The translations under genes and the position numbers were made by a program. A DNA stretch of 64,000 nucleotides, taken from Bryum argenteum. Lineage: Eukaryota > Streptophyta > Bryopsida > Bryales > Bryaceae. Below, in pieces: positions 8,701-64,000 of the stretch. Position 1 is the first letter of the stretch, and every line of letters starts with the position of its first letter. The stretch spans positions 3,736,648 through 3,800,647 of the forward strand of contig CM073329.1 of the NCBI GenBank assembly GCA_037043015.1. Direction: 5' to 3'. The notes beneath the pieces were generated by a model. The model ran no database searches, was not told the origin of the DNA, and saw only the letters and a program-made list of their open reading frames with translations.

Positions 8701-8710
8701 GACTTTGAGG

Positions 8711-23900: not shown

Positions 23901-26380
23901 AGTAACTGTGGACAACGGTGTGTTCAACACGAATATTGCTGGAGCTCGAGGTCGGTCCTCTCCATGGAGAGATGGCAGGCTGTCACCACCCATGAACACA
24001 CCGCAATCTGAGAAGACCAGCAATAACAACACTGTCACCAAGCCGCTGGCCTCGACGTCCATCAGCAAGCGAACATCTCTGTGGGGTCTTACTGCAGTAC
24101 GTGCACATCTGAGATTATCACCGCATGAACTTCACTGTTGCATGTTACTCACCAATCTTTATTGAAACTGTCTGAGCAATGAATTCGATTCGCAGGTGAC
24201 TAACAAGAGTGCAAATTCGGATGTCAACGATTCATCTGGAGAGGAAGAGTAGGTTCTCCACAACCTGGTTGTTGTTACATTCTTGGTTTATGATGGCTTA
24301 GCCTGAAGCTTATGAGTACTCTATGCTGATCCTGATTTTATTGTGGTGTTTGTTCCTTGACCCGTAGATTGGCCATCCATCGATTGGAAGTAACCAGGAC
24401 TGATTTGCGGAACCGGATTGCTAAAGAGGTATGCTTCTCTTATGGATTATGGTTTTTGCTTGTACCTTCTTTCATGTTTCTCACGAATAAGTTCGGGTTG
24501 CTTGCATCATACAGTAGCAGTCAGTCATTTCTAGATGTGTACATGTTAGCAACCTCCAGTTTCACCTACAGGGGAAATCCGAAGTACCTTGTCAGAAGGA
24601 ATTGTAAGTATCTTGTCTTTCTTCTTGTATCATTATGGTCGTCGTCAGTGTGACTAAATTGTGTCGTTTGGAATCTGCAGGCAAAAGGTAATGCAATCTT
24701 ACAAGCCAGTTTGGAGAGAAGAAAGCAAGCTTTACACGACCGTCGGCTCGCACTTGAGCAAGATGTATGTTCCAACCACCAATCTTGCAACTAATGCCAT
24801 AATCTAAGCCTCTCATTTGTCATGTAGGCTTGTGCAGTAACTCAAGCCGTTGTGAAGCTTTCTGACAAAGTGTGTTATGCTGGTGTGTGGTCAGGTGGCA
24901 AGATTGCAAGAGCAGCTCCAAACTGAGCGAGATTTAAGAGCTGCTCTGGAAATTGGGCTTAGTATGTCGGCCGCTCAGTTATCTGGTGCCCAGTCTCTTG
25001 ACTCCAAGGTAAGTTGAAGATGGCCGGTCTCAATTTTGGAGTCGTTACCTTAATCTAGACCACATTATGTTGCCTATTCAGTATTTTCTGATGTAATCTC
25101 GTCGTGCCGTTTGTAGACAAGAGCGGAAGTGGAGGAGATAGCCGTTGTGGAAGCTGATGTTGCAAGGTTGAAGCAAAAAGTTGCTGAGCTGCACTTGCAG
25201 TTGAACCAGCAACGCCAACAGCAACACGGGATGTCGCTCTCAGACTCTAACGAGCGTCAGCAGCGAGTCAAAAGTCTGCAAGCTCAACAGTAAGCTTCTG
25301 TGGGTGTGGAGGCACTAGTTTTCTATCAGCGTCAGAAACAGTTTACATCACATCATTCATCTTGATTGGTATCCAACTGAGCCGTTTTGAATGTTCTTGC
25401 AGAAAAATTCTGCAACAAGAGCTTGATTTGACATTAGCCCTTTGCCATCACGAGAAGCAGAAGAACGAGGTTATACTCCTTCTCCTTTTCACGTCCTCTG
25501 AAACTCCCTCAGTTAATTTGATTATTTGCTGATACTGTCTGCATTTATTGCAGAATGTCGATGGAATGGGTGCTCAAGAAGACACAGCTGCACTTGAGCA
25601 TGTAGTGAATCAACAACGTAATGCACTTGCAGAAGCAAAGGTACGTGGACGGGAAGAGCACGCAATTTGCAGAGTAATAGAACCATGTTTCCTCTCTGAG
25701 TATGATGTTGACTGGCACTTAGTTGTGGTTGGGTGCACATGCAGGAGGCTCTCATGGCCGAACGAGCTCGAGGTTTGAGCATGCAACGGCGAAGCAGCCC
25801 TCCACATGAACTATCTGGAGTGAGTGACTGGAGAACGCTTCGTCCACCTGCAGGGCCGTCAGCCGCTGGTCGCCAGTTCGCTTGGAGAAATCAGCCTGAT
25901 CCCTCCAACCTCTCTGAAGACATGAAGCTTGCCAGTTCGGACTGATCGAATCGTTAGAAACCATGCATCCTGGTGGGAAACGCCTTCATCTCGACCTCGA
26001 GGTACGCACTCAATCCAATCCATATCAATCTGTTGCACGACGTCCATCTTGTTTAGAATCAATCTACACAGTACTCCGTAACGTCTATATAAATAGAAAC
26101 TCAAAACCTTAACAATTAATGTGAATCAGTCGTTTGAATTCCTTGACTGATGTGAGAATGTGTGTGGGTGCAGAGCGGCAACACAAGGATACCAGTGTCA
26201 CATCGGCAACCACCCACAGCGTCAGCGGCACTGGTGGAGTTAACCACACGGCTGGACTTCTTCAAGGAGCGGCGATCGCAGCTGATGGACCAACTCAACA
26301 GTCTGGATCCAAGCTTAGTGCCCACCACTCTCAGCGGCCATGACTTGATGCCAACGTCTCCATCGAGAAGAAGCCCGTGA
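20906..26380 (+). CDS. REN1: PH-domain Rho GTPase-activating protein (ROP GAP, REN1/PHGAP family), 22 exons
   Basis: Exons: 20906-20974, 21260-21296, 21385-21461, 21573-21643, 21729-21798, 22060-22201, 22296-22424, 22499-22576, 22668-22723, 22811-22880, 22958-23045, 23139-23382, 23518-24096, 24196-24248, 24368-24428, 24681-24764, 24895-25008, 25117-25289, 25403-25469, 25554-25640, 25745-26001 and 26174-26380. All have GT-AG borders and the phases agree, giving about 937 residues. A PH domain (about 24-145) has VYKSGPLYISSKGLGW, WKRRWFILTRTSLVFF and LTLGGIDLNNS. The RhoGAP domain (about 175-370) has the catalytic Arg near residue 207 in GVEGILRQSADVEDVE, and AACMAPLLLRP. An acidic Ser-rich linker, a long coiled coil (exons 15-20) and the conserved C-terminal TRLDFFKERRSQLMDQL follow. 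The family speeds GTP hydrolysis on plant ROP GTPases at membranes in polar growth. Exon 21 is one base short: after MKLASS the frame hits TGA, while the next frame reads LIESLETMHPGGKRLHLDLE and joins exon 22 in phase. The start ATG (20906) is chosen because its exon ends in phase with exon 2. Exon 19 contains the left boundary of the tandem array. Confidence 0.95.
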
Positions 26381-27050
26381 ATGAGTAGAATGATGAATTG
26401 AACAGTCATTTTTTTTGTCTTTCTCTGTTCTTGCAAAATTTTCTGGTAGCTGGATTGTGTAGAACTATCAGTTAGTCAGTCAGTCAGCTGTAAAATGTTT
26501 TAGTGTAGGAGTTGCAAGGAGATCGCTAGAACATCCATTTATCTCCTCATGTGGGATTGGATTTCAAGTGGACCCAGTGATCATCCTCAGTTGAAATTGG
26601 GAGCCAGCCAGTTCCAGGGTCGGTCAGATTGACATTGATTACAACAGTTAGTAGCTTTTAGCATTGGAAGCACCTTGTATAGCATTGCATTGGGGTGGTG
26701 CAAGCCCTCTCGTTTCATTTCATGAATGTTTGTTTCGGAGCCGTCTTTCATTCAATCCCTTCAAATCTCTTCATTCTCTCCAGTACACTTCAGTGTCCTT
26801 GTAGTATTTTTCTACGGTTGTTGTGTACCTACATTGTTTTGTCATGCCATTTGTATGTGTTCTTGTTTTATAATGATTACCGCCTGTAAGTCATGCAGGA
26901 TTTATGGTCATATGGATCAAGAAACTAGGTCATACGCATGGATGCATCGTGATTTTGCAGTACAGCATTTTGCAGTGCAGCACCCTCCAGATGATTTACG
27001 AATTCAGTTGTGAGGGTTATCTTTCAATCGACTTTAGACATTGCCCGTGC
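26381..27050 (+). other. 3' UTR and downstream flank of the RhoGAP gene
   Basis: After the TGA at 26378-26380 come T-rich sequence (tcattttttttgtc), a cagtcagtcagtcag run at about 26473-26488, and taaaatgtttt near 26490. The 3' end is not fixed by sequence. This segment is repeated in all later units, with differences mainly at CAG/CTG. Confidence 0.5.
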
Positions 27051-27302
27051 ACTCAAAAATGATCCGATTGTGCGGTACAACCAATTGGGAGTCTACTACG
27101 TCTTCAACCACATGGGAGTCTAGTACGTCTTCAACACAAATTTACACATCAACGAATAGATATAAAATATTTCTACTACCGTACTTCAAACAATATCAAT
27201 GAATAAGTGTTAGTATACATTGCTTCAATTTGATGTTGAATATGAAAATTTGAAATGAGCTTACAAATGTGTTCTCATCATTTTCATTTTTATCATAATT
27301 AT

Positions 27303-28129
27303 GGGTGGAAGCACACTTGGGTGGATCAAAAAGTACGTTACGCCCTCTAAATCTTGTAAATTTGCTTGTTCAATGGCCTTTCTTGGACCCCTATACATCT
27401 TAAAGTACCAAATTTTTTTGGATTCAGCTAAAAAGAGTGATGAAGTGGGCAAATCACTTGACAATTTTTTCAAAAATATTAGGAACATCTTGTAATTTGC
27501 ACTTCTTGCTTTTTAGAAAAGTACGTTACAGCAGTCAAAAATGTTACAAAGTACTCCAACTTGGTAAGATTTGAGTTGCAAAGTACAAAAATAATTATAT
27601 GGTTAGAGAGAGCACCTTCTAAGGTAACGTATGTAAGTTGTATCATTACTTTCCAAAAACTCATCCTTTCCTCACAATTTTTAGCGATCAAAGGGCACAT
27701 TTTTTGACATGATGTAATTTAGTCAAAAATTAAACTTTTTAGGTGGATTTTTGTGCATTCCACCATATTCATACAATCCCCACGTGGGGCATTTGTACCA
27801 ACTCATTGTTTTTGGCACCAAAGGCTACTTCTAAGGAATCAAGATATGGTACTTAGCATGTACTCTTTGTACAATATTAAAAACTTCCGATGGGGATAAT
27901 TGTCATTATTGTGACTTTTATCACTAGCCCACAACCAAGTCTAGTAGTCCCCTTAATTCTCTTTAATTCACTATGATTTTTAACACTCAATGCTTCCTGT
28001 AAACCTTGTTTATTTGCAAATTAAGATTTCTAGTACCTAAAGTACCCATCAAAATTGGGCGTTGACTTTTGGTACTTCTTGAGTACAAGTATTTGTCCAA
28101 AAGTGATCCACCCTAGTATGCTTCTACCC
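27303..28129. mobile_element. Non-autonomous inverted-repeat element, 827 bp (unit 1)
   Basis: The left end is gggtggaagcacacttgggt then ggatcaaaaag. The right end, reverse-complemented, is gggtagaagcatactagggt then ggatcactttt. Ends match at about 26 of 31 positions. The interior is AT-rich with several gtac-containing motifs (aagtacgttac twice) and no transposase. tat on the left and tta/tat on the right are possible short target duplications. Confidence 0.7.
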
Positions 28130-28159
28130 TTATCAAGTTTATAATCATCAAGGCCTGCC

Positions 28160-28520
28160 TTTACTGGATTTAAAATACAATCGGTCACAATGTGCTGTGA
28201 GTAACAATCTTTTGAAGTATTTCATTACTTTGTGATGAGTCCAAAATGAGCATTAAATAGGGATTATTTGAGTCCCGACCTTTCTATTGATTGGATTTGA
28301 AATTTATCATTTTTATTATGAGATAAACATTATTAATTAGAACAACATATTAATTTACATAATTAAAAAAGCGGCTTTTTAGTCCGCGCCCAAATGGGTC
28401 AATTACAATATGGGGTTGTTATCATATGAATCAGACTCATCCAGCCCGGTTGGATTTATAACACATTCAACCACAATGAGAGTAACAATTTTTGAAGTAT
28501 TTGATTAATGTTTTGTTTCA
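28160..28520. repeat. Imperfect direct repeats about 285 bp apart (unit 1)
   Basis: ggatttaaaatacaa and agtaacaatctttt-gaagtattt (about 28167-28225) return as ggatttataacacattcaa and agtaacaatttttgaagtat (about 28450-28515). They are two diverged copies of one sequence, present in all units. Confidence 0.55.
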
Positions 28521-29241
28521 AGAACTTTGTAATTATGCCATTCTTAATCTAGTGAGCAGGGATAGTAACTAAATATATTTATTTTACAAATTATATCATA
28601 ATTATTGAGGGGCTCACTAAGATGAAGGGCTGTAAGTAGTATTTCAACTTTGTTACAAGTGAATAATCGAATCAATAAAAAAAAAAATCAGTCAATCCCT
28701 GACCATAACCATTTCAATTCAATCGAAATTGAAGAATATAAAGTTCTCCATGGCCAGGAAATTTCTTTATTAGCGCTCATGACTTAAATTATTTTATTGG
28801 GCACCTGAAAAAAGTGATCACAAATTAAATGGTTGAAGCTCATTCTTCCTTCGAAGTGCACAACATGTTGAATGTCTCCTTTCCACTCAAAACTTCATTT
28901 CGTGTGTAGCCACGCTACATGACTTGTTACTTTGAAGTTCTTTATGATTTTTATTTTTTACTAAGCAAATTAGTACTTTTAGCAAGAAAGGGGTTAAATT
29001 TTTTTCAACGCAAGTAGTAAATTCTTTAATCTAAAGTAAAAAGTTATACTTGATTATATGATTGTGGATTATGAAACTTTTCATTGCTTGCGGTTGGAAA
29101 TAGTGAATGGAATTTAATCCATCCCTTGCCGATTTGATTCTCTGTTATGATCTCCACACATCGAAAGGAATCATAAAATTCAAATTCATCAGAATGATTA
29201 TTTGAAATACTTAATTGAAACTCATTAACTTCTTCTGTTAT

Positions 29242-29415
29242 CACTGCATTATTTTTTTTTTTTTTTTTTTTGAAACAAATTGAGACACCTCAATTGCAAG
29301 TAAAAAAATAGGTTACAACATGGTGGCCCCTGGCCGGGATCGGCCAGGGCAGGGCCGACACAGGACTGAACCATACACATACAGGAACGACTAGGGTTCT
29401 GCCACTGCATTATTT
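29242..29415 (-). mobile_element. SINE-like retroposon with 13-bp target-site duplication (unit 1)
   Basis: The element (29255-29402) lies in minus orientation: its 3' poly(A) appears as a T run at the left end. It is flanked by cactgcattattt on both sides (29242-29254 and 29403-29415). Read on the minus strand it starts near tggcagaaccctag, a possible A box, and carries ggttcagtcc about 35 bases later, which matches the pol III B box. In unit 4 the same site reads ggttcgatcc, the canonical form. At about 148 bp with an A tail, it fits a SINE. It encodes no protein and inserted before the array was amplified. Confidence 0.75.
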
Positions 29416-31335
29416 AATGTTCGTTGGGTCGGTTAGTAAATCTTCTTCTGCAGATCTACCTAACTTAGTTTGAAGCATCCCCAAATTCCTGCACCAATCA
29501 TTCCTATCATGCGAAGTTACCTTGTTTGGTGTCAAAGTTGATACTTTTATGCGGTTTTTGAAAAAGTAACCTTCACATTCTTTTTTCTTTTTCAAAGATT
29601 AGTTCCAACAATTGATGCCCAATTGGAACTTCAATATTAAAAAGAAAACAATCTTATGTGTGCACTCGTCGGCAGGTGCATGTTGACTAGATCAAGTGTC
29701 TCCAAAGTTTGTTACTCTAAAGCTTTTGATTGGTTTTTGTTTTGTTCATTCCCATTTTTTCATTATTTGAATTCTATTGTCTTGCTTGATGGTGCCATTG
29801 GAGGCAAAGGCGTGTAACAATGAGGTAATTATACAAAGCATGGGCCCCATCTTCTTGAATGCCATCAATGATATGGTGCCCGAGATAAAAATACCCTTTC
29901 TATATTCTTTAAAATTTATGTCAATGTAAGATTGAGCCACGTAAGTCTAATATGATTGTAGAAGCAAATTCTTGTTGAATGATGTTTAATGACCCAATTG
30001 ATAAGTTTTTGTTGTAAGTTGGAACCTTATTGGAACTTTGGAAGTCAAACAAATAATGTTTGTAACTCAAGAAGGTACTCTTCTGTGAGCACTTTCTCTT
30101 GGGCAACGTACTCAACCATCAACCATCAATGTGGCCCTTGCCCAACTAAGCTTTTGGTATGTTTTTCTAGTCGTTGAGCCTCAAAGCTTTATTTGATTGT
30201 TCAACCGTCCGATGTTGTGTATGTAGTTCTTTGACACTCTTGATTTGTGAAACCACTTCTTAAGTTTGATTAGTGATCATTATAATATCATACACTATTA
30301 ATCCTAAATCAACCTTCTTATTCATTCATTGAACTCAAATCTCCTGGACTACTTTCAATCAGTCTTTATTTTGAGCCAACGTTGTCAAACCGCAGCCGCG
30401 CCCGGAAACACTTGTCCGCCTGTTTGCTTGTGCGTTTACCTCAACACGCTTGATATGGCTAAGCTTTAAGGGGATCAAACCGGGCGGGCATGCCGCTCGC
30501 CAAGGACAATGGTCCGTCCGATCACCTCAACACGCCCGATATGACATGACCTTGTTTTGAGCCTCAAGTTTGAAGACATTGTCAACAAATCCTAAGGATG
30601 AGCTTTGTCAAATGATATATTCATTCTTATAAATCAAACAAGACAATTATATCATAAATAGGGTTATTGGTCAACCAACTTTAAGATCTTATTGTTATGA
30701 GTTTGAAATCTTAGAATCTTCTTTTGCTATTGCTCCATTTTGTACTACAAGACCCATAATTATGAGAGACTTCCATTGACTTGAAAGAGCTTGGCCCAAG
30801 TTGAAGCCTTGAAGGGTTAAGGAAAAGAGTTGACTTTTCAAGAGTAAGTGGTTTTGAACTTATTTTATTCTTTCGGAAATGAAAGTGTTTTACTTTTTAC
30901 TTACCAATTAAGTAACTATGAGAAGTCTAATTAACACCCAACACCTAAACGAAAATCTAATCTTCATAATTACTTCTAGAAGTGGATATGGCGTTTAAGA
31001 ACAAATAAGAGAGGAGCATAGTATTCCCTAATTAGTGGCGGTCAACCTCCTCCACCCATTGAACACCCTTGACCGTCACTTTCATTATGAAATACGTATG
31101 GTACTAGAATACGTACATCATATACGGAATTGACGCCGCCACCGGATCGACGACGATGGCGATGGCGGCGGCATTTAGTGGATGATCGACAGAGGCGGTG
31201 ACCGGTCACGTCGTCACTGTAAATAATTGGGCGGGAAAACGGATTTGAATTTGAATGGGACCTATTTGAATTGGCGCCTCAATCGTTCGAATGCTGGCAA
31301 ACTCAAGAGTGAGGCTGAACAGCAGTCGGTCTCAT

Positions 31336-31626
31336 TCATGATCCACTCGATCGATGCTTTGGTTCCGGACGTGTAGATTGTTGGAAGTCATTCACGGAGT
31401 GACGCTTTGATTCGGTCGTCATGTAACCGGAAGGATTGGTGATGGTCGAAGAAGACGACACTTCACTCATTAGGAATACTTGCGCAGGCACTTCTTCCGT
31501 CGGGTCAGGAGCTTCTGGCTGCATTTGTCTCTGCCGGCATATGTGAAATAATTCTCGCTTCGATCTGATGGATCGATTTGTCAAGTGCCAGCAATCCCGG
31601 TCGCGCGCGAGTCTATGTAGGTACAA
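31336..31626 (-). other. Conserved open frame of 96 codons in unit 1, coding status uncertain
   Basis: It starts MYLHRLARDRDCWHLTNRSI and ends RPEPKHRSSGS. Units 2, 3 and 4 have corresponding frames (41130-41420, 50947-51240, 60744-61037) whose middle differs through a compensated frame change (SEVYVFFDHHQSFWL). No family is recognised. Conservation is not evidence of selection, because the units are nearly identical everywhere. It could be an exon, a fortuitous frame or a relic. Confidence 0.25.
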
Positions 31627-31957
31627 ATTAACACTCTCATACGTAAACAGTGTTCAAGTATAATTTATCACTTGGTGTTCGTGAAGATCGACTTTCTGGA
31701 GAATTGAAGGGTTAGAATTCTAAAACATGCCTGCCTGTCGAAAACGTTAGTCGATCATAGTTAGCCAGTAGGTTGTTGATCGCAACTGGCATTCAGATAT
31801 TAAGTGGAACCCGAACTTGGGGTGCGTTACACGAGTTCTCTACTCCGCTAGCGATCGACATTCGGGTTGCATGCAGCCCAGAAATTGAGATTGAAGTTAC
31901 TTGTATGCATGTCATCGTAGTTGTATCTTGAGTCTCATCCCCCGGTTTGCTCTGAGT

Positions 31958-32952
31958 GAATTCGAGCCCCGTGACGTGTGCACACCATAGAGGAGCATGC
32001 CAACTAGTTGTAGTTCATTGGATGAAATGCTATGTTTTGTTTTTGAGTTTAGACAGTCGCTTGAAAACGAAATCAATGGTCATCTGCATATATTGCTTAC
32101 GGCGATCGAGTGCATGCACGGGATAGATATGAGCCTCGAATTATGCGAGGAAATTTTTTTCGTCATTATCTCCAACTCGGCTGTAGTCACTCACTCTCAT
32201 GTTTGCTAGCAAGACGGTCCGCGTGCCGAGGTTGAGGTCTTGAACCATGCTACGAGGTACCGAAGTCCGTTTGATCACGATCACAGTCATGTAGATGGGC
32301 ATGTAAGTATAATTATGACGATGTAGAGCTTGATGTAGATTACTGAAGCCTATGAATTGCAAACTGTGGTCGTCGGATTAATCCGTGTGCACTCTGTTCG
32401 ATCCTACAGAGTACAGACTGGTTCCAGGATTCTTTAATTCCGTGGGACTAATGATGACCAGCCATGAGAGAATTCGAGTCCCGTGTGCACACCATAGAGG
32501 AGCATGCCGATGAGTTGTAGTTCATTGGATCAAATGTTATGTCCTGTTTCTGAGTTTAGACAGTTCCTTGAAAACGTATTCTATGCTCATCTGCATAAGC
32601 TTACGGCGAGTGCATGGATTGGATGGATATGAGCCTCGAATTCACCGAGAAACTTTCTTCGTAATTATCCCCGACTCGGCTGTAGTCACTCACTCTCATG
32701 TTTGCGAGCAAGACGGTCCGCGTGCTGAGGTTGAGGTCTTGAACCATGATTGTCACTATTAACTACGAGGTACCAAAATCGTCAATTCCGATGGGCAGTG
32801 GATGTAGAGCTTAGATGGGTAGTAGATGTAGAGCTTGGTTTAGAGCACTGAAGCCCATGAATTGCAAACTGTGGTCATCAGATTAATCCGTGTGCACTCT
32901 GTTCGATCCTCTGCATCGGTTCCAGGATTCTTTCGTGGGACAAATGATGACC
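31958..32952. repeat. Older internal duplication, two units of about 510 bp (unit 1)
   Basis: gaattcgag(c/t)cccgtg starts at 31958 and 32470. Shared blocks include cacaccatagaggagcatgc, ggatatgagcctcgaatt, gcaagacggtccgcgtgc and ggga(c/a)(t/a)aatgatgacc. The two halves differ by ordinary substitutions and indels scattered in all contexts, unlike the differences between the 9.8-kb units, so this duplication is much older than the array. Confidence 0.82.
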
Positions 32953-33361
32953 CCGGTTTCGGTAGTAATCCCTTCCAAATGAATGCTCGGCCAAGGACTC
33001 ACGGAAGAGAGAGCGATGATCTCACGAATTCATACATGAACCGAGATGTTGTCGATCATAGCATTACAATGAAATCGAGGTACGACGTACGTGTTGAGAC
33101 GTGAGCTTTCTTTTCCGGCCGTCAATCACATGGCTCGATTTGAGGTGAATTGCGTGGGCCGCATGCCCATGAACGAGGTTATGTATGCAATGGAAACCCA
33201 GTACCGTTACAGAACTGGTGGAGACGCATGTTCTGGCCCTACTTGACCTTACACCACGCGCTCGCGATTATTAATATTTGTGAAACATGATAGTTACCAG
33301 TGGGCACCTCTGTAACTTTGATTGTTGAACTTCGACGCGGAAGGAGCCATTTGAAGCTTAG

Positions 33362-33436
33362 CTAGTGCGGAGATACCAATGCGTAACTAGTGCGGAGTTA
33401 TCAATGCGTAACCAGTGCGGAGTTACCAATGCGTAA
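33362..33436. repeat. 25-bp tandem repeat, three units (unit 1)
   Basis: c(t/c)agtgcggag followed by (a/t)ta(c/t)caatgcgtaa, three times head to tail. There are no spacers, so it is not a CRISPR. Confidence 0.88.
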
Positions 33437-34458
33437 CTACAACTATATCTGTAACATCAAACGTACTGGATTCGTTAACTTTCTTTCCGTCGACCATATG
33501 ACGACGACGACCCTTGTGGTGCTGTTTCGGTGCGTCCAGCCACTGGAGCTTTCATTGTTGGTGGAAAGGGGAATGTCAAGTTGCAGGCGGCCGAGAACAA
33601 CCCTTAGTACATTGTCGTCGTTATTAGCTTCGAGGCAAGCTACTACTGTGCAGCAGCCGAGTTTCGTTTCACACACATGTGCAATTTTTAGAGAATACCT
33701 CGGATTTTCGGATATGGCAAAGAAAAGTTCGGATGTGACACCAACAAGTAAGGGGAGTAGTGCGAGCTTTTGTTGTAGACTTGAAAAGCAAGCGATCGCA
33801 CAACCATGTTAATATCGATACACTTAACACTGTCTTACTCCACGCTCAAGGTTCCAAGTTCAGATAGTATCATGAATGGCAATTCGAGCTAGCTTGTACC
33901 CCCCCTTTCGGGTAGAATTCCAAAGCATTCAAGGTAACTAAGGCGAATTCATATGATTGTGCGGTATCCTGATTCTTTCGGGGGCATTAAAAAATCTTAA
34001 GAAAAAAACAAAAACAGGGGTCTCGTGGATCATTCTGTTAAATTCTAATAAAGTGTTGAAGCATGAAATTGAGCGTGTTCAATTTCCTGAAGCATTCTTC
34101 CAAGAAGCTTGTGACCAAATAATCATGCACGATTACCATTCCGAAAATAACAGTTGAATGTTGTTCTGAATTATGAGTTTTAGAACTCTTTCTTTGAAGA
34201 TAAAATACTGGAGGTTCGCAATTGGTATTCATGAAAAGACGAAACCTTGGAAGGGGAAATTTGTGAAATTCAATAAATCGGTCTCGTGAACTGGAAGTTT
34301 CAACAAACAAGGTGAATCATAGTATTTGTCAATATGGTACCTCGGAATTGGGTCACTTTTATGAGAAAGGCTCTGAAACTTTAAGTAAAGCAATTAAGCA
34401 GGGTTCATTTTGATATGCACCCCTAGGATTAGTAAGTTTCAAAATGAATGCATTTTCA

Positions 34459-34546
34459 TTGCAAAAAGATTCCAAATTCATAACAAATCCATAGCAAATT
34501 CTTTGCAAAAAGATTCGAAATTCATAGCAAATTCATTGCATTTTGC
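34459..34546. repeat. 44-bp tandem duplication (unit 1; present in all units)
   Basis: ttgcaaaaagattc(c/g)aaatt followed by cata(a/g)caaat occurs at 34459 and again at 34503. AT-rich, non-coding. Confidence 0.7.
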
Positions 34547-34836
34547 TTTCATTTTTATTGCACTTTCAAGGATACTGATCAGGATCATGGTGGTCCGAAA
34601 AGAAGAAAATCGGTGATGATTTGTATGGCTAAAGAACTGATTGCCTTCCTAAAACCGAAAGTTTGAGCAATTTGTACATCGGAATTCGTCGATTCTCTAC
34701 ACGTAGTATCGATTGTAGTTTGAAACTAGTTAGAAGATATTCATCAAATGGATTACACAATTTAAAATGGGTTGACCGCTCCCAAAACCAAAAAGTAAAA
34801 CCAAAAAACATAGCAAATTAAAGAGCATTAGAGATT

Positions 34837-35230
34837 GTGAGGGCTCCACTTACAGCGACAACAATGACCACTGGCACGCCGGCTACGGTAGGTCAACTAC
34901 CAACCTATGCTATAGCTTCTAAAATATATATATCCAGCCTTAGTCCTTTTCTCGGACATCCCACCCCCTTCATCACTCCTTGCATCTCCCCCGCACGCAC
35001 ATCCAATCTTGCTTCCCGTACATTTTACTCCACACGCTTCGCCAATCTTCAAAGATTTCCTAGAACTTCATTCCGGAATGATCAGGCTCACAACCCACAC
35101 CGTAATCTTCCAAACAATACGTTCACCCATCGGGCTTTACACAGTCATGATTGGGGCACCACATGTGATACACTGGTCATCCATGGAATCTGGACATTCA
35201 AGGTTATATCTGCTTGATTTGACGTTATTT
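34837..35230 (+). promoter_or_regulatory. TATA/CT-rich promoter-like block directly upstream of the RhoGAP 3' fragment in unit 2
   Basis: aaaatatatatatccagcc near 34921, a TATA-like motif, is followed by a pyrimidine-rich stretch (ccacccccttcatcactcct) resembling a plant core promoter and leader. An open frame starts at ATG 35081 (MIRLTTHTVIFQTIRSPIGL) and runs to the junction. The same block precedes units 3 (44638-45030) and 4 (54455-54848). It is probably the 5' end of an unidentified gene truncated by the duplication breakpoint; its function is unknown. Confidence 0.4.
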
Positions 35231-36166
35231 AGCCCTTTGCCATCACGAGAAGCAGAAGAACGAGGTTTATTCCTTCTCCTTTTCACGTCCTCTGAAACTC
35301 CCTCAGTTTATTTGATTATTTGCTGATACTGTCTGCATTTATTGCAGAATGTCGATGGAATGGGTGCTCAAGAAGACACAGCTGCACTTGAGCATGTAGT
35401 GAATCAACAACGTAATGCACTTGCAGAAGCAAAGGTACGTGGACGGGAAGAGCAAGCAATTTGCAGAGTAATAGAACCATGTTTCCTCTCTGAGTATGAT
35501 GTTGACTGGCACTTAGTTGTGGTTGGGTGCACATGCAGGAGGCTCTCATGGCCGAACGAGCTCGAGGTTTGAGCATGCAACGGGCGGCGACCCTCTCCAC
35601 ATGAACTATCTCGGAGTGAGTGGATCGAGAACGCTTCGTCCACCTGCAGGCCGCCACCACCTGGTCGTCGCGATTCGCTTGGAGAAATCACCGATCCTCC
35701 AACCTCTCTCAAGACATGAAGCTTGCGATTCGGATCGATCGAATCGTTAGAAACCATGCATCCTGGTGGGAAACGCCTTCATCTCGACCTCGAGGTACGA
35801 CTCAATCCAATCCATATCAATCATTTGCACGACGTCCATCTTGTTTAGAATCAATCTACACAAGACTCGTAACGTCTATATAAATAGAAACTCAAAACCT
35901 TAACAATTAATGTGAATCGGTCGTTTGAATTCCTTGATCGATGTGAGAATGTGTGTGGGTGCAGAGCGGCAACACAAGGATACCCGATGTCACATCGGCA
36001 ACCACCCCACGGCGTCGGCCGCATGGTGGAGTTAACCACACGGTGGACTTCTTCAAGGAGCGGCGATCGCGGTGATGGACCAACTCAACAGCCGGATCCA
36101 AGCTTAGTGCCCACCACTCTCGGCCATGACTTGATGCCAACGTCTCCATCGAGAAGAAGCCCGTGA
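35231..36166 (+). pseudogene. Headless 3' fragment of the PH-RhoGAP gene (unit 2)
   Basis: It contains the end of exon 19 (35231-35264), exon 20 (35348-35434, intact: NVDGMGAQEDTAALEHVVNQ), exon 21 (35539-35794) and exon 22 (35965-36166). Exons 21 and 22 have small indels at CAG/CTG positions that break the frame. In the RhoGAP frame a TGA lies just left of the junction (TGA CGT TAT TTA GCC), so it is not an in-frame fusion to upstream sequence. PH and GAP domains are absent. If the indels are assembly errors, the true fragment would still encode only part of the coiled coil and the C-terminal tail. Confidence 0.9.
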
Positions 36167-52568: not shown

Positions 52569-52981
52569 AGCGGTTTCGGTAGTAATCCCTTCCAAATGAA
52601 TGCTCGGCCAAGGACTCACGGAAGAGAGCTGATGATCTCACGAATTCAGACATGAACCGAGATGTTGTCGATCATAGCATTACAATGAAATCGAGGTACG
52701 TACGTACGTGTTGAGACGTGAGCTTTCTTTCTGGCTGTCAATCACATGGCTCAGATTTCAGAGGTGAATTGCGTGGGCTGCATGCCCATGAACGAGGTTA
52801 TGTATGCAATGGAAACCCGATCACGATTCTGAAGCGGGTGGAGACGCATGTTCTGGCCCTACTTGACCTTACACCACGCGCTCGCGATTATTAATATTTG
52901 TGAAACATGATAGTTACCAGTGGGCACCTCTGTAACTTTGATTGTTGAACTTCGACGCGGAAGGAGCCATTTGAAGCTTAG

Positions 52982-53056
52982 CTAGTGCGGAGATACCAAT
53001 GCGTAACTAGTGCGGAGTTATCAATGCGTAACCAGTGCGGAGTTACCAATGCGTAA
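52982..53056. repeat. 25-bp tandem repeat, three units (unit 3 copy)
   Basis: Same three units as at 33362-33436. Confidence 0.88.
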
Positions 53057-54848
53057 CTACAACTATATCTGTAACATCAAACGTCTTTGGATTCGTTAAC
53101 TTTCTTTCCGTCGACCATATGACGACGGCGACCCCTTGTGGTCTTTGTTTTGGTGCGTCCCACCACCTGGAGCTTTCATTGTTGGTGGAAAGGGGAATGT
53201 CAAGTTGCGGCGGCCGAGAACAACCCTTAGTACATTGTCGTCGTTATTAGCTTCGAGGCAAGCTACTCTTGTGCGCAGCCGAGTTTCGTCACACATGTGC
53301 GGCTTAGAGAATACCTCGGATTTCTCGGATATGGCAAAGAAAAGTTCAGATGTGACACCAACAAGTAAGGGGAGTAGTGCGAGCTTTCTTTGTAGACTTG
53401 AAAAGCAAGCGATCGCACAACCATGTTAATATCTCGATACACTTACTTGTTTGTCTTACTCCACGTTCGAAGGTTCCAAGTTCGAGATAGTATCATGAAT
53501 GGCAATTCGAGCTAGCTTGTACCCCCCCCTCGGGTAGAATTCCGGCATTCAAGGTAACTAAGGCGAATTCATATGATTGTCTTGATATCCCGATTCTTTC
53601 GGGGCATTAAAAATCTTAAGAAAAAAACAAAAACAGGGGTCTCGTGGATCATTCATTAAATTCTAATAAAGTGTTGAAGCATGAAATTGAGCGTGTTCAA
53701 TTTCTCAAGCATTCTTCCAAGAAGCTTGTGACCAAATAATCATGCACGATTACCATTCCGAAAATAACGAGTTGAATGTTGTTCGAATTATGAGTTTTAG
53801 AACTCTTTCTTTGAAGATAAAATCTTTGGAGGTTCGCAATTGGTATTCATGAAAAGACGAAACCTTGGAAGGGGAAATTTGTGAAATTCAATAAATCGGT
53901 CTCGTGAATGGAAGTTTCAACAAACAAGGTGAATCATAGTATTTGTCAATATGGTACCTCGGAATTGGGTCACTTTTATGAGAAGGCTCTCGAAACTTTA
54001 AGTAAAGCAATTAAGCGGGGTTCATTTTGATATGCACCCACAGGATTAGTAAGTTTCAAAATGAATGCATTTTCATTGCAAAAAGATTCCAAATTCATAA
54101 CAAATCCATAGCAAATTCTTTGCAAAAAAGATTCGAAATTCATAGCAAATTCATTGCATTTTGCTTTCATTTTTATTGCACTTTCAAGGATACTGATCAG
54201 GATCACAGCTGGTCTGAAAAGAAGAAAACTGGTGATGATTTGTATGGCTAAAGAACTGATTGCCTTCCTAAACTGAAAGTTTGAGCAATTTGTACATCGG
54301 AATTCGTCGATTCTCTACACGTAGTATCAGATTGTAGTTTGAAACTAGTTAGAAGATATTCATCAAATGGATTACACACCAGAAATGGGTTGACCGCTCC
54401 CAAAACCAAAAAGTAAAACCAAAAAACATAGCAAATTAAAGAGCATTAGAGATTGTGAGGGCTCCACTTACAGCGACAACAATGACCACTGGCACGCCGG
54501 CTACGGTAGGTCAACTACCAACCTATGCTATAGCTTCTAAAATATATATATCCAGCCTTAGTCCTTTTCTCGGACATCCCACCCCCTTCATCACTCCTTG
54601 CATCTCCCCCGCACGCACATCCAATCTTGCTTCCCGTACATTTTACTCCACACGCTTCGCCAATCTTCAAAGATTTCCTAGAACTTCATTCCGGAATGAT
54701 CAGGCTCACAACCCACACCGTAATCTTCCAAACAATACGTTCACCCATCGGGCTTTACACAGTCATGATTGGGGCACCACATGTGATACACTGGTCATCC
54801 ATGGAATCTGGACATTCAAGGTTATATCTGCTTGATTTGACGTTATTT

Positions 54849-55783
54849 AGCCCTTTGCCATCACGAGAAGCAGAAGAACGAGGTTTATTCCTTCTCCTTT
54901 TCACGTCCTCTGAAACTCCCTCAGTTTATTTGATTATTTGTCGTCTTTATGCGCATTTATTGCGAGAATGTCGATGGAATGGGTGCTCAAGAAGAAGACA
55001 CAGTGCACTTGAGCATGTAGTGAATCAACAACGTAATGCACTTGCGAAGCAAAGGTACGTGGACGGGAAGAGCAAGCAATTTGCGAGTAATAGAACCATG
55101 TTTCTCTCTCCGAGTATGATGTTGGTGGCACTTAGTTGTGGTTGGGTGCACATGCGGGAGGCTCTCATGGCCGAACGAGCTCGAGGTTTGAGCATGCAAC
55201 GGCGGCGACCCTCCACATGAACTATCCGGAGTGAGTGATGGAGAACGCTTCGTCCCCTGCGGGGCCGTCACCGCCGGTCGCCGATTCGCTTGGAGAAATC
55301 ACCTGATCCTCCAACCTCTCACGAAGACATGAAGCTTGCCGATTCGGACTGATCGAATCGTTAGAAACCATGCATCCTGGTGGGAAACGCCTTCATCTCG
55401 ACCTCGAGAGTACGCACTCAATCCAATCCATATCAATCTGTTGCACGACGTCCATCTTGTTTAGAATCAATCTACACAAGACTCGTAACGTCTATATAAA
55501 TAGAAACTCAAAACCTTAACAATTAATGTGAATCGGTCGTTTGAATTCCTTGGGCGATGTGAGAATGTGTGTGGGTGCGGAGCGGCAACACAAGGATACC
55601 GATGTCACATCGGCAACCACCCACGGCGTCGGCAGCGCTGGTGGAGTTAACCACACGGTGGACTTCTTCAAGGAGCGGCGATCGCGGTGATGGACCAACT
55701 CAACGATCGGATCCAAGCTTAGTGCCCACCACTCTCGCGGCCATGACTTGATGCCAACGTCTCCATCGAGAAGAAGCCCGTGA
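54849..55783 (+). pseudogene. Headless 3' fragment of the PH-RhoGAP gene (unit 4)
   Basis: Same remnant exons as in units 2 and 3, with acceptors altered (ttgcgagaatg, acatgcggga) and several indels at CAG/CTG. The 197-codon open frame at 54627-55220 crosses the junction in a frame different from the RhoGAP frame in its first half and is considered fortuitous. Confidence 0.88.
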
Positions 55784-56703
55784 ATGAGTAGAATGATGAA
55801 TTGAGCAGTCATTTTTTTGTCTTTTCTGTTCTTGCAAAATTTTTTAAGTATTTGGATTGTGTAGAACTATCGGTTAGTCGATCAGTCGGTGTAAAATGTT
55901 TTAGTGTAGGAGTTGCAAGGAGATCGCTAGAACATCCATTTATCTCCTCATGTGGGATTGGATTTCAAGTGGACCCAGTGATCATCCTCGATTGAAATTG
56001 GGAGCGGCCCGGTTTCAGGGTCGGTCAGATTGACATTGATTACAACGATTAGTAGCTTTTAGCATTGGAAGCACCTTGTATAGCATTGCATTGGGGTGGT
56101 GCAAGCCCTCTCGTTTCATTTCATGAATGTTTGTTTTGAGCCGTCTTTCATTCAATCCCTTCAAATCTCTTCATTCTCTCCAAGTACACTTGGTGTCCTT
56201 GTAGTATTTTTCTACGGTTGTTGTGTACCTACATTGTTTTGTCATGCCATTTGTATGTGTTCTTGTTTTATAATGATTACACTTTGTAAGTCATGCAGGA
56301 TTTATGGTCATATGGATCAAGAAACTAGGTCATACGCATGGATGCATCGTGATTTTTGCGATCTGACATTTTGCGGTGCGGCACCCTCCGGATGATTTAC
56401 GAATTGATTTGTGAGGGTTATCTTTCAATCGACTTTAGACATTGCCCGTGCACTCAAAAATGATCCGATTGTGCGGTACAACCAATTGGGAGTCTACTAC
56501 GTCTTCAACCACATGGGAGTCTAGTACGTCTTCAACACAAATTTACACATCAACGAATAGATATAAAATATTTCTACTACCGTACTTCAAACAATATCAA
56601 TGAATAAGTGTTAGTATACATTGCTTCAATTTGATGTTGAATATGAAAATTTGAAATGAGCTTACAAATGTGTTCTCATCATTTTCATTTTTATCATAAT
56701 TAT

Positions 56704-57530
56704 GGGTGGAAGCACACTTGGGTGGATCAAAAAGTACGTTACGCCCTCTAAATCTTGTAAATTTGCTTGTTCAATGGCCTTTCTTGGACCCCTATACATC
56801 TTAAAGTACCAAATTTTTTTGGATTCAGCTAAAAAGAGTGATGAAGTGGGCAAATCACTTGACAATTTTTTTCAAAAATATTAGGAACATCTTGTAATTT
56901 GCACTTCTTGCTTTTTAGAAAAGTACGTTACAATGATCAAAAATGTTACAAAGTACTCCAACTTGGTAAGATTTGAGTTGCAAAGTACAAAAATAATTAT
57001 ATGGTTAGAGAGAGCACCTTCTAAGGTAACGTATGTAAGTTGTATCATTACTTTCCAAAAACTCATCCTTTCCTCACAATTTTTAGCGATCAAAGGGCAC
57101 ATTTTTGACATGATGTAATTTAGTCAAAAATTAAACTTTTTAGGTGGATTTTTGTGCATTCCACCATATTCATACAATCCCCACGTGGGGCATTTGTACC
57201 AACTCATTGTTTTTGGCACCAAAGGCTACTTCTAAGGAATCAAGATATGGTACTTAGCATGTACTCTTTGTACAATATTAAAAACTTCCGATGGGGATAA
57301 TTGTCATTATTGTGACTTTTATCACTAGCCCACAACCAAGTCTAGTAGTCCCCTTAATTCTCTTTAATTCACTATGATTTTTAACACTCAATGCTTCCTG
57401 TAAACCTTGTTTATTTGCAAATTAAGATTTCTAGTACCTAAAGTACCCATCAAAATTGGGCGTTGACTTTTGGTACTTCTTGAGTACAAGTATTTGTCCA
57501 AAAGTGATCCACCCTAGTATGCTTCTACCC
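56704..57530. mobile_element. Non-autonomous inverted-repeat element (unit 4 copy)
   Basis: Same ends as the other copies. The internal cagcag (about 27532 in unit 1) reads caatga here, another CAG-site difference. Confidence 0.7.
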
Positions 57531-58642
57531 TTATCAAGTTTATAATCATCAAGCAAGGCCTTGCATTTGGATTTAAAATACAACTGGTCACAATGTGCTG
57601 TGAGTAACAATCTTTTGAAGTATTTCATTACTTTGTGATGAGTCCAAAATGAGCATTAAATAGGGATTATTTGAGTCGACCTTTCTATTGATTGGATTTG
57701 AAATTTATCATTTTTATTATGAGATAAACATTATTAATTAGAACAACATATTAATTTACATAATTAAAAAACTGGCTTTTTAGCTGCTGCCCCAAATGGG
57801 TCAATTACAATATGGGGTTGTTATCATATGAATCAGACTCATCCAGGCCGGTTGGATTTATAACACATTCAACCACAATGAGAGTAACAATTTTTGAAGT
57901 ATTTGATTAATGTTTTGTTTCAAGAACTTTGTAATTATGCCATTCTTAATCTAGTGAGCGGGGATAGTAACTAAATATATTTATTTTACAAATTATATCA
58001 TAATTATTGAGGGGCTCACTAAGATGAAGGGCTGTAAGTAGTATTTCAACTTTGTTACAAGTGAATAATCGAATCAATAAAAAAAAAAATCAGTCAATCC
58101 CTGACCATAACCATTTCAATTCAATCAGAAATTGAAGAATATAAAGTTCTCCATGGCCAGGAAATTTCTTTATTAGCGCTCATGACTTAAATTATTTTAT
58201 TGGGCACCTGAAAAAAGTGATCACAAATTAAATGGTTGAAGCTCATTCTTCCTTCGAAGTGCACAACATGTTGAATGTCTCCTTTCCACTCAAAACTTCA
58301 TTTCGTGTGTAGCCACGCTACATGACTTGTTACTTTGAAGTTCTTTATGATTTTTATTTTTTACTAAGCAAATTAGTACTTTTAGCAAGAAAGGGGTTAA
58401 ATTTTTTCAACGCAAGTAGTAAATTCTTTAATCTAAAGTAAAAAGTTGTAACAGTTATATGATTGTGGATTATGAAACTTTTCATTGCTTGCGGTTGGAA
58501 ATAGTGAATGGAATTTAATCCATCCCTTGCCGATTTGATTCTCTGTTATGATCTCCACACATCGAAAGGAATCATAAAATTCAAATTCATCAGAATGATT
58601 ATTTGAAATACTTAATTGAAACTCATTAACTTCTTCTGTTAT

Positions 58643-58820
58643 CACTGCATTATTTTTTTTTTTTTTTTTTTTGAAACAAATTGAGACACCTCAATTGCAA
58701 GTAAAAAAATAGGTTACAACATGGTGGCCCCTGGCCGGGATCGGCCAGGGCAGGGCCGACACAGGATCGAACCATACACATACGGGGAACGACTAGGGTT
58801 ACGCCTTTGCATTATTTAAT
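58643..58820 (-). mobile_element. SINE-like retroposon (unit 4 copy)
   Basis: Same insertion. The left duplication is cactgcattattt; the right one reads cctttgcattattt. The B box is canonical here (ggttcgatcc on the minus strand). Confidence 0.73.
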
Positions 58821-61377
58821 GTTCGTTGGGTCGGTTAGTAAATCTTCTTCTGCAGATCTACCTAACTTAGTTTGAAGCATCCCCAAATTCCTGCACCAAT
58901 CATTCCTATCATGCGAAGTTACCTTGTTTGGTGTCAAAGTTGATACTTTTATGCGGTTTTTGAAAAAGTAACCTTCACATTCTTTTTTCTTTTTCAAAGA
59001 TTAGTTCCAACAATTGATGCCCAATTGGAACTTCAATATTAAAAAGAAAACAATCTTATGTGTGCACTCGTCGGCGGTGCATGTTGACTAGATCAAGTGT
59101 CTCCAAAGTTTGTTACTCTAAAGCTTTTGATTGGTTTTTGTTTTGTTCATTCCCATTTTTTCATTATTTGAATTCTATTGTCTTGCTTGATGGTGCCATT
59201 GGAGGCAAAGGCGTGTAACAATGAGGTAATTATACAAAGCATGGGCCCCATCTTCTTGAATGCCATCAATGATATGGTGCCCGAGATAAAAATACCCTTT
59301 CTATATTCTTTAAAATTTATGTCAATGTAAGATTGAGCCACGTAAGTCTAATATGATTGTAGAAGCAAATTCTTGTTGAATGATGTTTAATGACCCAATT
59401 GATAAGTTTTTGTTGTAAGTTGGAACCTTATTGGAACTTTGGAAGTCAAACAAATAATGTTTGTAACTCAAGAAGGTACTCTTACGTGAGCACTTTCTCT
59501 TGGGCAACGTACTCAACCATCAACCATCAATGTGGCCCTTGCCCAACTAAGCTTTTGGTATGTTTTTCTAGTCGTTGAGCCTCAAAGCTTTATTTGATTG
59601 TTCAACCGTCCGATGTTGTGTATGTAGTTCTTTGACACTCTTGATTTGTGAAACCACTTCTTAAGTTTGATTAGTGATCATTATAATATCATACACTATT
59701 AATCTTAAATCAACCTTCTTATTCATTCATTGAACTCAAATCTCTGGACTACTTTCAATCGAGTCTTTATTTTGAGCCAACGTTGTCAAACCAGGCAGCC
59801 GCCCCGGAAACACTTGTCCCCTGTTTGCTTGTGCGTTTACCTCAACACGCTTGATATGGCTAAGCTTTAAGGGGATCAAACCGGGCAGGCATGCCGCTCG
59901 CCAAGGACAACTGGTCCGTCTGATCACCTCAACACGCCCGATATGACAGCCTTGTTTTGAGCCTCGAAGTTTGAAGACATTGTCAACAAATCCTAAGGAT
60001 GAGCTTTGTCAAATGATATATTCATTCTTATAAATCAAACAAGACAATTATATCATAAATAGGGTTATTGGTCAACCAACTTTAAGATCTTATTGTTATG
60101 AGTTTGAAATCTTAGAATCTTCTTTTGCTATTGCTCCATTTTGTACTACAAGACCCATAATTATGAGAGACTTCCATTGACTTGAAAGAGCTTGGCCCAA
60201 GTTGAAGCCTTGAAGGGTTAAGGAAAAGAGTTGACTTTTCAAGAGTAAGTGGTTTTGAACTTATTTTATTCTTTCGGAAATGAAAGTGTTTTACTTTTTA
60301 CTTACCAATTAAGTAACTATGAGAAGTCTAATTAACACCCAACACCTAAACGAAAATCTAATCTTCATAATTACTTCTAGAAGTGGATATGGCAGTTTAA
60401 GAACAAATAAGAGAGGAGCATAGTATTCCCTAATTAGTGGCGGTCAACCTCCTCCACCCATTGAACACCCTTGACCGTCACTTTCATTATGAAATACGTA
60501 TGGTACTAGAATACGTACATCATATACGGAATCTGTACGCCGGCCACCGGGGACTGACGCTGACGATGGCGGCGGCGGCATTTAGTGGATGACCGACAGA
60601 GGCGGTGACCGGTCACGCGGTCACCTGTAAATAATTGGGCGGGAAAACGGATTTGAATTTGAATGGGACCTATTTGAATTGGCGCCTCAATCGTTCGAAT
60701 GCTGGCAAACTCAAGAGTGAGGCTGAACAGCAGTCGGTCTCATTCATGATCCACTCGATCGATGCTTTGGTTCCGGACGTGTAGATTGTTGGAAGTCATT
60801 CACGGAGTGACGCTTTGATTTCAGTGCGTCATGTAACCAGAAGGATTGGTGATGGTCGAAGAAGACGTACACTTCACTCATTAGGAATACTTGCGCAGGC
60901 ACTTCTTCCGTCGGGTCAGTAGCTTCTGTCTGCATTTGTCTCTGCCGGCATATGTGAAATAATTCTCGCTTCGATCTGATGGATCGATTTGTCAAGTGCC
61001 AGCAATCCCGGTCGCGCGCGAGTCTATGTAGGTACAAATTAACACTCTCATACGTAAACAGTGTTCAAGTATAATTTATCACTTGGTGTTCGTGAAGATC
61101 GACTTTCTGGAGAATTGAAGGGTTAGAATTCTAAAACATGCCTGCCTGTCGAAAACGTTAGTCGATCATAGTTAGCCAGTAGGTTGTTGATCGCAACTGG
61201 CATTCAGATATTAAGTGGAACCCGAACTTGGGGTGCGTTACGAGTTCTCTACTCCGCTAGCGATCGACATTCGGGTTGCATGCGGCATTTTAAATTGAGA
61301 TTGAAGTTACTTGTATGCATGTCATCGTAGTTGTATCTTGAGTCTCATCCCCCGGTTTGCTCTGAGTGAATTCGAGC

Positions 61378-62358
61378 CCCGTACGTGTGCACACCATAGA
61401 GGAGCATGCCAACTAGTTGTAGTTCATTGGATGAAATGCTATGTTTTGTTTTTGAGTTTAGGCAGTCGCTTGAAAACGAAATCAATGGTCATCCGCATAT
61501 TAGCTTACGGCGATCGAGTGCATGCACGGGATAGATATGAGCCTCGAATTATGCGAGGAAATTTTTTTCGTCATTATCTCCAACTCGGTTTGTAGTCACT
61601 CACTCTCATGTTTGCTAGCAAGACGGTCCGCGTCGTGCCGAGGTTGAGGTCTTGAACCATGCACGAGGTGCGAAGTCCGTTTGATCACGATCACGATCAT
61701 GTAGATGGGCATGTAAGTATAATTATGACGATGTAGAGCTTGATGTAGATTATCGAAGCCTATGAATTGCAAAGCGTGGTCGTCGGATTAATCCGTGTGC
61801 ACTCTGTTCGATCCTACTGAGTGCTGGGTGTTCCAGGATTCTTTAATTCCGTGGGACTAATGATGACCAGCCATGAGAGAATTCGAGTCCCGTGTGCACA
61901 CCATAGAGGAGCATGCCGATGAGTTGTAGTTCATTGGATCAAATGTTATGTCCTGTTTCTGAGTTTAGACAGTTCCTTGAAAACGTATTCTATGCTCATC
62001 TGCATAAGCTTACGGCGAGTGCATGGATTGGATGGATATGAGCCTCGAATTCACCGAGAAACTTTCTTCGTAATTATCCCCGACTCATTTGTAGTCACTC
62101 ACTCTCATGTTTGCGAGCAAGACGGTCCGCGTCTTTGAGGTTGAGGTCTTGAACCATGATTGTCACTATTAACTACGAGGTACCAAAATCGTCAATTCCG
62201 ATGGGCAGTGGATGTAGAGCTTAGATGGGTAGTAGATGTAGAGCTTGGTTTAGAGCACTGAAGCCCATGAATTGCAAAGCGTGGTCATCATTAATCCGTG
62301 TGCGCTCTGTTCGATCCCTGGTGGTTCCAGGATTCTTTACGTGGGACAAATGATGACC
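61378..62358. repeat. Internal 510-bp duplication (unit 4 copy)
   Basis: Same two-part structure, with more CTG-site changes (for example gtctttgaggttgagg for gtgctgaggttgagg at about 62132). Confidence 0.8.
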
Positions 62359-62767
62359 GGCGGTTTCGGTAGTAATCCTTCCAAATGAATGCTCGGCCAA
62401 GGACTCACGGAAGAGAGGCGATGATCTCACGAATTGAGACATGAACCGAGATGTTGTCGATCATAGCATTACAATGAAATCGAGGTACGTGCGTGCGTGT
62501 TGAGACGTGAGCTTTCTTTTCGTTGTCAATCACATGGCTCGGATTTCAGAGGTGAATTGCGTGGGTGCATGCCCATGAACGAGGTTATGTATGCAATGGA
62601 AACCCGATGCATCGTTCTGAATCGGGTGGAGACGCATGTTCGGCCCTACTTGACCTTACACCACGCGCTCGCGATTATTAATATTTGTGAAACATGATAG
62701 TTACCAGTGGGCACCTCAGAACTTTGATTGTTGAACTTCGGACTTGAAGGAGCCATTTGAAGCTTAG

Positions 62768-62841
62768 CTAGTGCGGAGATACCAATGCGTAACTAGTGCG
62801 GAGTTATCAATGCGTAACGGTGCGGAGTTACCAATGCGTAA
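62768..62841. repeat. 25-bp tandem repeat, three units (unit 4 copy)
   Basis: Same array. The third unit lost one base where the others read ccagtgcgg (a CAG): here it reads cggtgcgg. Confidence 0.86.
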
Positions 62842-64000
62842 CTACAACTATATCGTAACATCAAGCGATTGGATTCGTTAACTTTCTTTCCGTCGACCAT
62901 ATGACGACGACGACCCTTGTGGTGCTGTTTCGGTGCGTCCAGCCACTGGAGCTTTCATTGTTGGTGGAAAGGGGAATGTCAAGTTGCAGGCGGCCGAGAA
63001 CAACCCTTAGTACATTGTCGTCGTTATTAGCTTCGAGGCAAGCTACTCTTGTGCGGCGGCCGAGTTTCGTCACACATGCGAAATTTTAGAGAATACCTCG
63101 GATTTCTCGGATATGGCAAGAAAAGTTCAGATGTGACACCAACAAGTAAGGGGAGTAGTGCGAGCTTTGCTGTAGACTTGAAAAGCAAGCAGATCGCACA
63201 ACCATGTTAATATCTGATACACTTAACACTGTCTTACTCCACGTTCGAAGGTTCCAAGTTCAGATAGTATCATGAATGGCAATTCGAGCTAGCTTGTACC
63301 CCCCCTTTCGGGTAGAATTCCAGCATTCAAGGTAACTAAGGCGAATTCATATGATTGTGCGGTATCCTGATTCTTTCGGGGGCATTAAAAAATCTTAAGA
63401 AAAAAACAAAAACAGGGGTCTCGTGGATCATTCTGTTAAATTCTAATAAAGTGTTGAAGCATGAAATTGAGCGTGTTCAATTTCCTGAAGCATTCTTCCA
63501 AGAAGCTTGTGACCAAATAATCATGCACGATTACCATTCCGAAAATAACGGTTGAATGTTGTTACGAATTATGAGTTTTAGAACTCTTTCTTTGAAGATA
63601 AAATCTTTGGAGGTTCGCAATTGGTATTCATGAAAAGACGAAACCTTGGAAGGGGAAATTTGTGAAATTCAATAAATCGGTCTCGTGAAATGGAAGTTTC
63701 AACAAACAAGGTGAATCATAGTATTTGTCAATATGGTACCTCGGAATTGGGTCACTTTTATGAGAAAGGCTCTGAAACTTTAAGTAAAGCAATTAAGCAG
63801 GGTTCATTTTGATATGCACCCCTGGGATTAGTAAGTTTCAAAATGAATGCATTTTCATTGCAAAAAGATTCCAAATTCATAACAAATCCATAGCAAATTC
63901 TTTGCAAAAAGATTCGAAATTCATAGCAAATTCATTGCATTTTGCTTTCATTTTTATTGCACTTTCAAGGATACTGATCAGGATCACAGCTGGTCTGAAA

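Follow-up and report, generated by a model that had tools for sequence, protein, structure and literature searches.

We analysed a window of 64,000 nucleotides of the Bryum argenteum genome (G000:C9:3736648-3800647, within a genome of 259 Mb in 25 contigs), in which a head-to-tail array of long units begins at position 25421 and continues past the window end. Four full units are present, each of 9782 to 9818 bases; to these four, which were all that the preliminary description of the locus counted, a partial fifth copy must be added (1.8 kb, 91% identical, at 64612-66399 of the extended sequence). A 501-base unit probe matched just the five array copies in the genome, these counts being lower bounds. 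The opening part of every unit repeats the tail of a RhoGAP gene that lies just upstream, and units 2-4 are 96.6 to 97.4% identical to unit 1. Our concern here is what the remaining differences between units represent.

The four units were aligned with MAFFT and nearby variable columns grouped into clusters, which yielded 648 variable columns in 226 difference clusters. With 2 bases of context, a CAG or CTG word (hereafter CWG) is present in at least one unit at 150 of the 226 clusters, where random placement of stretches of equal length would give 28.4. Counted by column, variation affects 518 of the 2368 columns lying within 4 columns of a CWG and 130 of the 7552 elsewhere, and 201 of 259 CWG sites vary among units. 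The remaining 76 clusters comprise 25 of homopolymer length, 12 with CCG/CGG only, 11 with another CG and 28 of other kinds. CCG/CGG words are enriched too in the raw cluster count (92 against 24.1 expected), because the wrong words frequently contain CCG or CGG. More than 5 columns from any CWG, variation is found at 10 of 94 CCG/CGG sites and at 10 of 146 sites with another CG, ten other trinucleotide contexts range from 1.7% (CTA/TAG, 3/179) to 12% (GAC/GTC, 15/125), and 23 of 101 windows of five equal bases are variable. The differences track CWG rather than CHG in general. The preliminary description had proposed an alignment of the four units tabulated by context, and this gives a strong CWG excess with contexts that are far from even; the strings it quoted are present (14/14), and the coordinates given for them lie within 4 bases of a match (13/13). 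Its statement that differences fall almost only at CAG/CTG is sound as regards CWG dominance, but is slightly too strong, because homopolymer length, a companion error at 25 of the 226 clusters, constitutes a clear second class.

The wrong words take a limited range of forms. CAGT becomes CGAT, and CAG becomes CGG, CG or CGAG; CTG becomes TG, CG, TCG or CCG, and ACTG at times becomes CTTTG. Across 206 comparisons in which a CWG is lost, a CpG is gained in 136, length is changed in 114 and the change is of deamination type in 6, and another 75 comparisons differ with the CWG retained. Since CWG belongs to CHG, one possibility is that the differences are real mutations, produced by C-to-T deamination of methylated CHG or by a process on repeats similar to repeat-induced point mutation, and in dispersed repeats of this genome 45 of 118 changed CWG sites are indeed of deamination type. 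In the array, however, such changes are few by every count: besides the 6/206 above, 16 of 216 changed five-mers relative to the coding version in unit 1 (128 of which gain a CpG and 84 change length) and 65 of 677 changed CWG sites (out of 1310 CWG sites in the array). C-to-T (or G-to-A) changes thus do not dominate at CWG, in agreement with the preliminary description, and the sites are moreover homoplasic rather than tree-like. Deamination is contradicted by this spectrum and we reject it; real mutation of either kind appears extremely improbable.

A base caller whose knowledge of 5-methylcytosine (5mC) is limited to CpG would be expected to render methylated CWG as CpG. Nanopore miscalls could have another cause, such as N6-methyladenine (6mA) in CAG or a weakness of the caller at CAG/CTG that is independent of methylation. 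CAG and CTG are mutual reverse complements, so that the affected contexts would be no different under 6mA in CAG, and CCG/CGG is only weakly affected (10/94). Yet 136 of 206 lost words gain a CpG, as they should where a caller accounts for a 5mC signal by writing methylated CpG, and in silenced plant repeats it is 5mC at CWG that is standard, and not 6mA. We consider a cause of this other kind very unlikely.

No tree of the units accounts for the CWG losses. Among 65 CWG sites that split the units two against two, 1216 of 2080 pairs violate the four-gamete test, and where a site is lost in at least two units the resulting strings, widened to invariant flanks, are unlike at 72 of 93. Ordinary divergence of tandem duplicates, with differences fitting a tree and few indels, is therefore not what is found, although substitutions are still the majority of events. 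Outside the gene tail, sites lost in 0, 1, 2 and 3 units number 66, 58, 42 and 3, against 60.3, 72.4, 30.7 and 5.3 expected, sites lost in all four units being invisible to this way of counting. Once CWG, homopolymers and their surroundings are excluded, 15 to 24 substitutions (30 to 53 columns when gaps are counted) separate the members of a unit pair over 6290 columns.

For the gene tail, unit 1 was taken as truth because it is the coding version. Over the first 1650 bases it keeps nearly all of its CWG words, and its copies lose most of theirs (Table 1); when all five copies are aligned over their first 1.8 kb, the CWG words retained in units 1-5 number 69, 27, 22, 28 and 32 of 72. Measured against unit 1 over those 1650 bases, 142 of 216 CWG cells are changed in the other four copies. 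Away from CWG the corresponding figures are 8/48 for CCG/CGG, 9/252 for other CG, 13/1216 for CHH and 38/2140 for the remainder. All these counts omit cells that touch any of 34 columns where the four copies share a state unlike that of unit 1, since such columns may be real differences. Some of these 34 columns, within 25421-27070, do resemble real differences between gene and copies (e.g. unit positions 13, 53 and 241). The final exon (25745-25945) is open in unit 1 with 13 of 13 CWG words; its copies in units 2-5 match 2, 4, 3 and 5 of the 13, contain 8, 4, 5 and 6 indel runs respectively, and have acquired premature stops in units 2, 4 and 5. In the exon before it (25554-25640), units 2-5 match 3, 1, 0 and 1 of 3.

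Outside the gene tail the damage runs in blocks. Consecutive CWG losses in one unit number 98, against a shuffled mean of 37.1, and none of 5000 shuffles gave a value as high. Several blocks are clear (Table 1), and other stretches show more mixed damage. One explanation is that the array is a copy-specific methylation map, the damaged blocks being methylated in the unit concerned and the clean blocks unmethylated. Damage is indeed strongly uneven along the unit, 24-site windows ranging from 7% to 82% lost (0/5000 shuffles reach either value), and unit 1 has kept almost all CWG words of its gene tail (69/70). However, which of the near-identical copies are damaged changes sharply over distances of a few tens to hundreds of bases, and the mosaic is most simply read as patchy short-read correction among such copies. 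Patchy polishing makes a direct prediction, namely that errors outside CWG should share the damaged units, and lone non-homopolymer deviants outside CWG do so: 32 of 36 fall in a unit that is CWG-damaged within 120 columns, a proportion that drops to 43 of 108 among the other units (p 2e-7; clusters lacking a 3:1 split and two lacking nearby CWG were excluded). A methylation map of this kind is thus unlikely. As the block switching resembles patchy short-read polishing, the sequence is no direct methylation map, and the suggestion in the preliminary description that heavily methylated DNA can be told from the raw sequence itself is not supported in that form. Given this switching and the sharing of damaged units, a clean CWG is uninformative and just the damaged ones hint at methylation: a damaged CWG is probably one that was methylated and left uncorrected.

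Table 1. Coordinates of the upstream gene, the array units and the clearest blocks of CWG damage or retention (window positions unless stated).
Feature	Position	Strand	Remarks
RhoGAP gene, intact, tail enters unit 1	20906..25945	+	start approximate (ATG picked by eye); stop at 25945
RhoGAP gene, last exons	25554-25640 and 25745-25945 (stop)	+	both open in unit 1
Unit 1	25421..35211	+	first 1650 bases nearly clean (69/70 CWG kept), block damage further on
Unit 2	35212..45011	+	damaged gene-tail copy, 28/70 CWG kept
Unit 3	45012..54829	+	damaged gene-tail copy, 23/70 CWG kept
Unit 4	54830..64000 in window, to 64611 in extended sequence	+	damaged gene-tail copy, 25/70 CWG kept
Block	30485..31156 (unit positions 5065-5736)	.	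CWG damage in unit 1 9/9, unit 2 5/9; units 3 and 4 clean
Block	32394..32591 (unit positions 6974-7171)	.	10 consecutive CWG kept in all four units
Block	32934..33159 (unit positions 7514-7739)	.	CWG damage in unit 1 9/9, unit 4 8/9; units 2 and 3 clean
Block	unit positions 8046-8979	.	unit 3 damaged at 24/28 CWG; unit 2 clean throughout
Block	unit positions 9168-9341	.	unit 1 damaged at 7/8 CWG

The same error spectrum is found at an unrelated locus of the assembly. Comparison repeats were drawn from 200 kb elsewhere in the genome, and among them is a second array (G000:C9:8026553-8027868), a 484-base tandem repeat in two full copies with no relation to the main array. CWG lies at 8 of its 10 difference clusters, against 0.7 expected, and the same kinds of wrong word occur, ACTG/CTTTG included. 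Dispersed repeats behave differently: indels account for 56 of 728 events in 17 dispersed pairs, whereas the six unit pairs of the main array together give 571 of 1926 (eight nearby-repeat rows, the second array included, are outside the dispersed-pair total). A CWG excess by itself was rejected as proof, a milder excess being present in other repeats; since mild excess is ordinary, it is the forms of the words and the indels that mark the arrays. These observations bear on a further possibility, that a real mutator of CWG sites, acting for example through cleavage and error-prone repair, has diversified the copies. CWG specificity with indels and CpG-like products, seen in two unrelated arrays, is what such a process could produce. 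The dispersed pairs nearest in identity to the array units (97.4% and 95.6%), however, contain indels in just 0 of 32 and 1 of 29 clusters, and stretches damaged in one unit but clean in the other copies are hard to account for simply by mutation. We regard a mutator as most improbable.

Within the window itself, a 240-base repeat in two copies (6589-7052, 91% identical) has 10 difference clusters, 5 with indels and 3 with CWG (1.5 expected), and may show the same artefact in weaker form.

Taken together, these comparisons make it highly probable that nearly all differences between units are sequencing and assembly errors rather than differences in the DNA, and specifically nanopore errors at methylated CWG that were patchily corrected. 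Errors that are CWG-specific, mostly not of deamination type, often length-changing, partly independent between copies and near-absent from the unit 1 tail are the expectation for a caller that knows 5mC in CpG alone and meets methylated CWG in repeats beyond the reach of short-read polishing. Three steps may be proposed. First, the array would be a recently duplicated, silenced repeat carrying 5mC at CHG, mainly at CAG/CTG. Second, native DNA would have been read on nanopores with such a caller, methylated CAG/CTG then being turned, in reads and consensus alike, into CpG-like words (CGAT, CGG, CG, CGAG) or stretched ones (ACTG to CTTTG). Third, short reads would have fixed most of the genome, with their uneven sharing among near-identical copies leading to block-wise correction of some copies. 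The preliminary description had likewise proposed nanopore base-calling error at modified CWG in a repeat that could not be polished; CWG specificity, the length-changing, non-deamination forms and the second array favour this part of it, though not the methylation record that was attached to it. That the feature is an artefact, and one with a good explanation, is well supported. The likelihoods we attach to the several explanations are rounded, and the explanations are not fully exclusive.

A number of observations nevertheless weigh against this account. The final exon in unit 3 is frame-shifted yet unstopped, and exon 25554-25640 is identical in units 1 and 2 (3/3 CWG). The clean tail of unit 1 could reflect either an unmethylated gene or a polished one, and the weaker effect at CCG/CGG in the copies of this tail (8/48) fits CWG-preferring methylation, but the sample is small. 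Losses outside the tail are near to independence between units without reaching it in full, and deamination-type words are somewhat commoner among the five-mers (16/216) and the CWG sites of the whole array (65/677) than among lost words. Homopolymer deviants are not significantly tied to damaged blocks: damage lies nearby for 11 of the 16 deviant units and for 25 of the 48 others (p 0.38). CWG is over-represented in the differences of dispersed pairs as well, with 118 of 300 sites changed, and six comparison repeats have CWG at 3/10, 5/20, 6/13, 0/1, 8/32 and 11/29 clusters, for which 1.5, 3.4, 2.4, 0.1, 3.8 and 3.9 respectively are expected, the final two repeats being the dispersed pairs of 97.4% and 95.6% identity.

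As to the locus itself, the gene upstream of the array is presumably of the PH/RhoGAP/coiled-coil (REN1/PHGAP) type. It has further open exons at 23137-23382 (17 CWG) and 23518-24096 (22 CWG), the first with a Pfam RhoGAP match of 26.5 bits (cut-off 24.5). The 9.8 kb unit contains an internal duplication of about 490 bases, about 80% identical (31975-32459 and 32482-32952), which recurs at the same place in the other units. No coding transposon or virus was found in the unit by Pfam (0 matches for the 11 tried of 45 stop-to-stop open reading frames of at least 85 amino acids), and a 7980-base stretch had zero matches in a phage collection. Identity as ribosomal DNA was rejected, the window having zero Rfam matches at gathering score; genome-wide, 5S rRNA gave 46 scored matches at single places over 11 contigs, with best candidates scored and arrays possible. 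Telomere words of plant type are abundant in the genome, (CCCTAAA)x4 matching 224 times on the forward and 997 times on the reverse strand, and a (GATA)n satellite of about 3.1 kb lies at G000:C9:8048604-8051717 (extent by self-matches, 80 bases inspected).

An apparent divergence of about 3% would misdate duplications as too old and cause copies to be labelled broken pseudogenes. Work on tandem-repeat variation, gene conversion, CHG depletion or paralog evolution could be led astray in plant assemblies constructed in a similar way, and comparison of CWG words with a clean twin offers a simple test by which such regions may be flagged. It is conceivable, though we would sooner doubt it than assert it, that CWG-to-CpG-like changes in unpolished near-identical repeats provide a one-sided record of CHG methylation in archived plant assemblies that lack raw signal. 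If true, a clean twin together with damaged copies, such as the gene tail and its four copies, would form a built-in truth set for a per-assembly decoder.

CMT3-type chromomethylases methylate CHG with a preference for CAG/CTG, CCG being weaker, and target repeats while sparing active genes. The array shares the CWG preference, whereas its putative methylation is here deduced from sequencing errors. Repeats are also where residual errors collect in the nanopore and Illumina assembly of maize A188, in which, after Nanopolish and Pilon, about 96.4% of potential errors were in transposons and other repeats (PMC8188678). The array's errors are repeat-located likewise and fall mostly at CWG; motifs are not broken down in the passages available for maize. 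Nanopore miscalls at telomeres are systematic and sequence-specific, run into other words and can change word length, and they are attributed to similar current profiles of repeat words (PMC9414165); in the array, in contrast, a modified base is suggested by the motif and by the clean gene tail. All-context methylation calling is the subject of PMC10849370 and PMC8514461, and nothing on CHG was found in the available portion of PMC10962732. Among the papers listed on nanopore error and methylation, with subscription journals mostly outside the survey, none describes in its title or abstract opening a plant case of CWG-to-CpG errors in the consensus. An artefact of this kind is known; its CWG-to-CpG wording and the block mosaic are not described in the literature so surveyed.

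In bacteria, the motifs at which methylation drives nanopore errors are those of Dcm and Dam. As described in PMC7501810, which cites Wick et al. 2019, such errors reach the consensus and shrink with a taxon-trained caller, and nanopore callers of that period were not trained on plants. The array is like the bacterial case in that its errors are concentrated on a motif (201 of 259 CWG sites variable), but it differs in its motif, CWG, in its CpG-like wrong words and in the mosaic that the damage forms across near-identical tandem repeats after what was probably short-read polishing.

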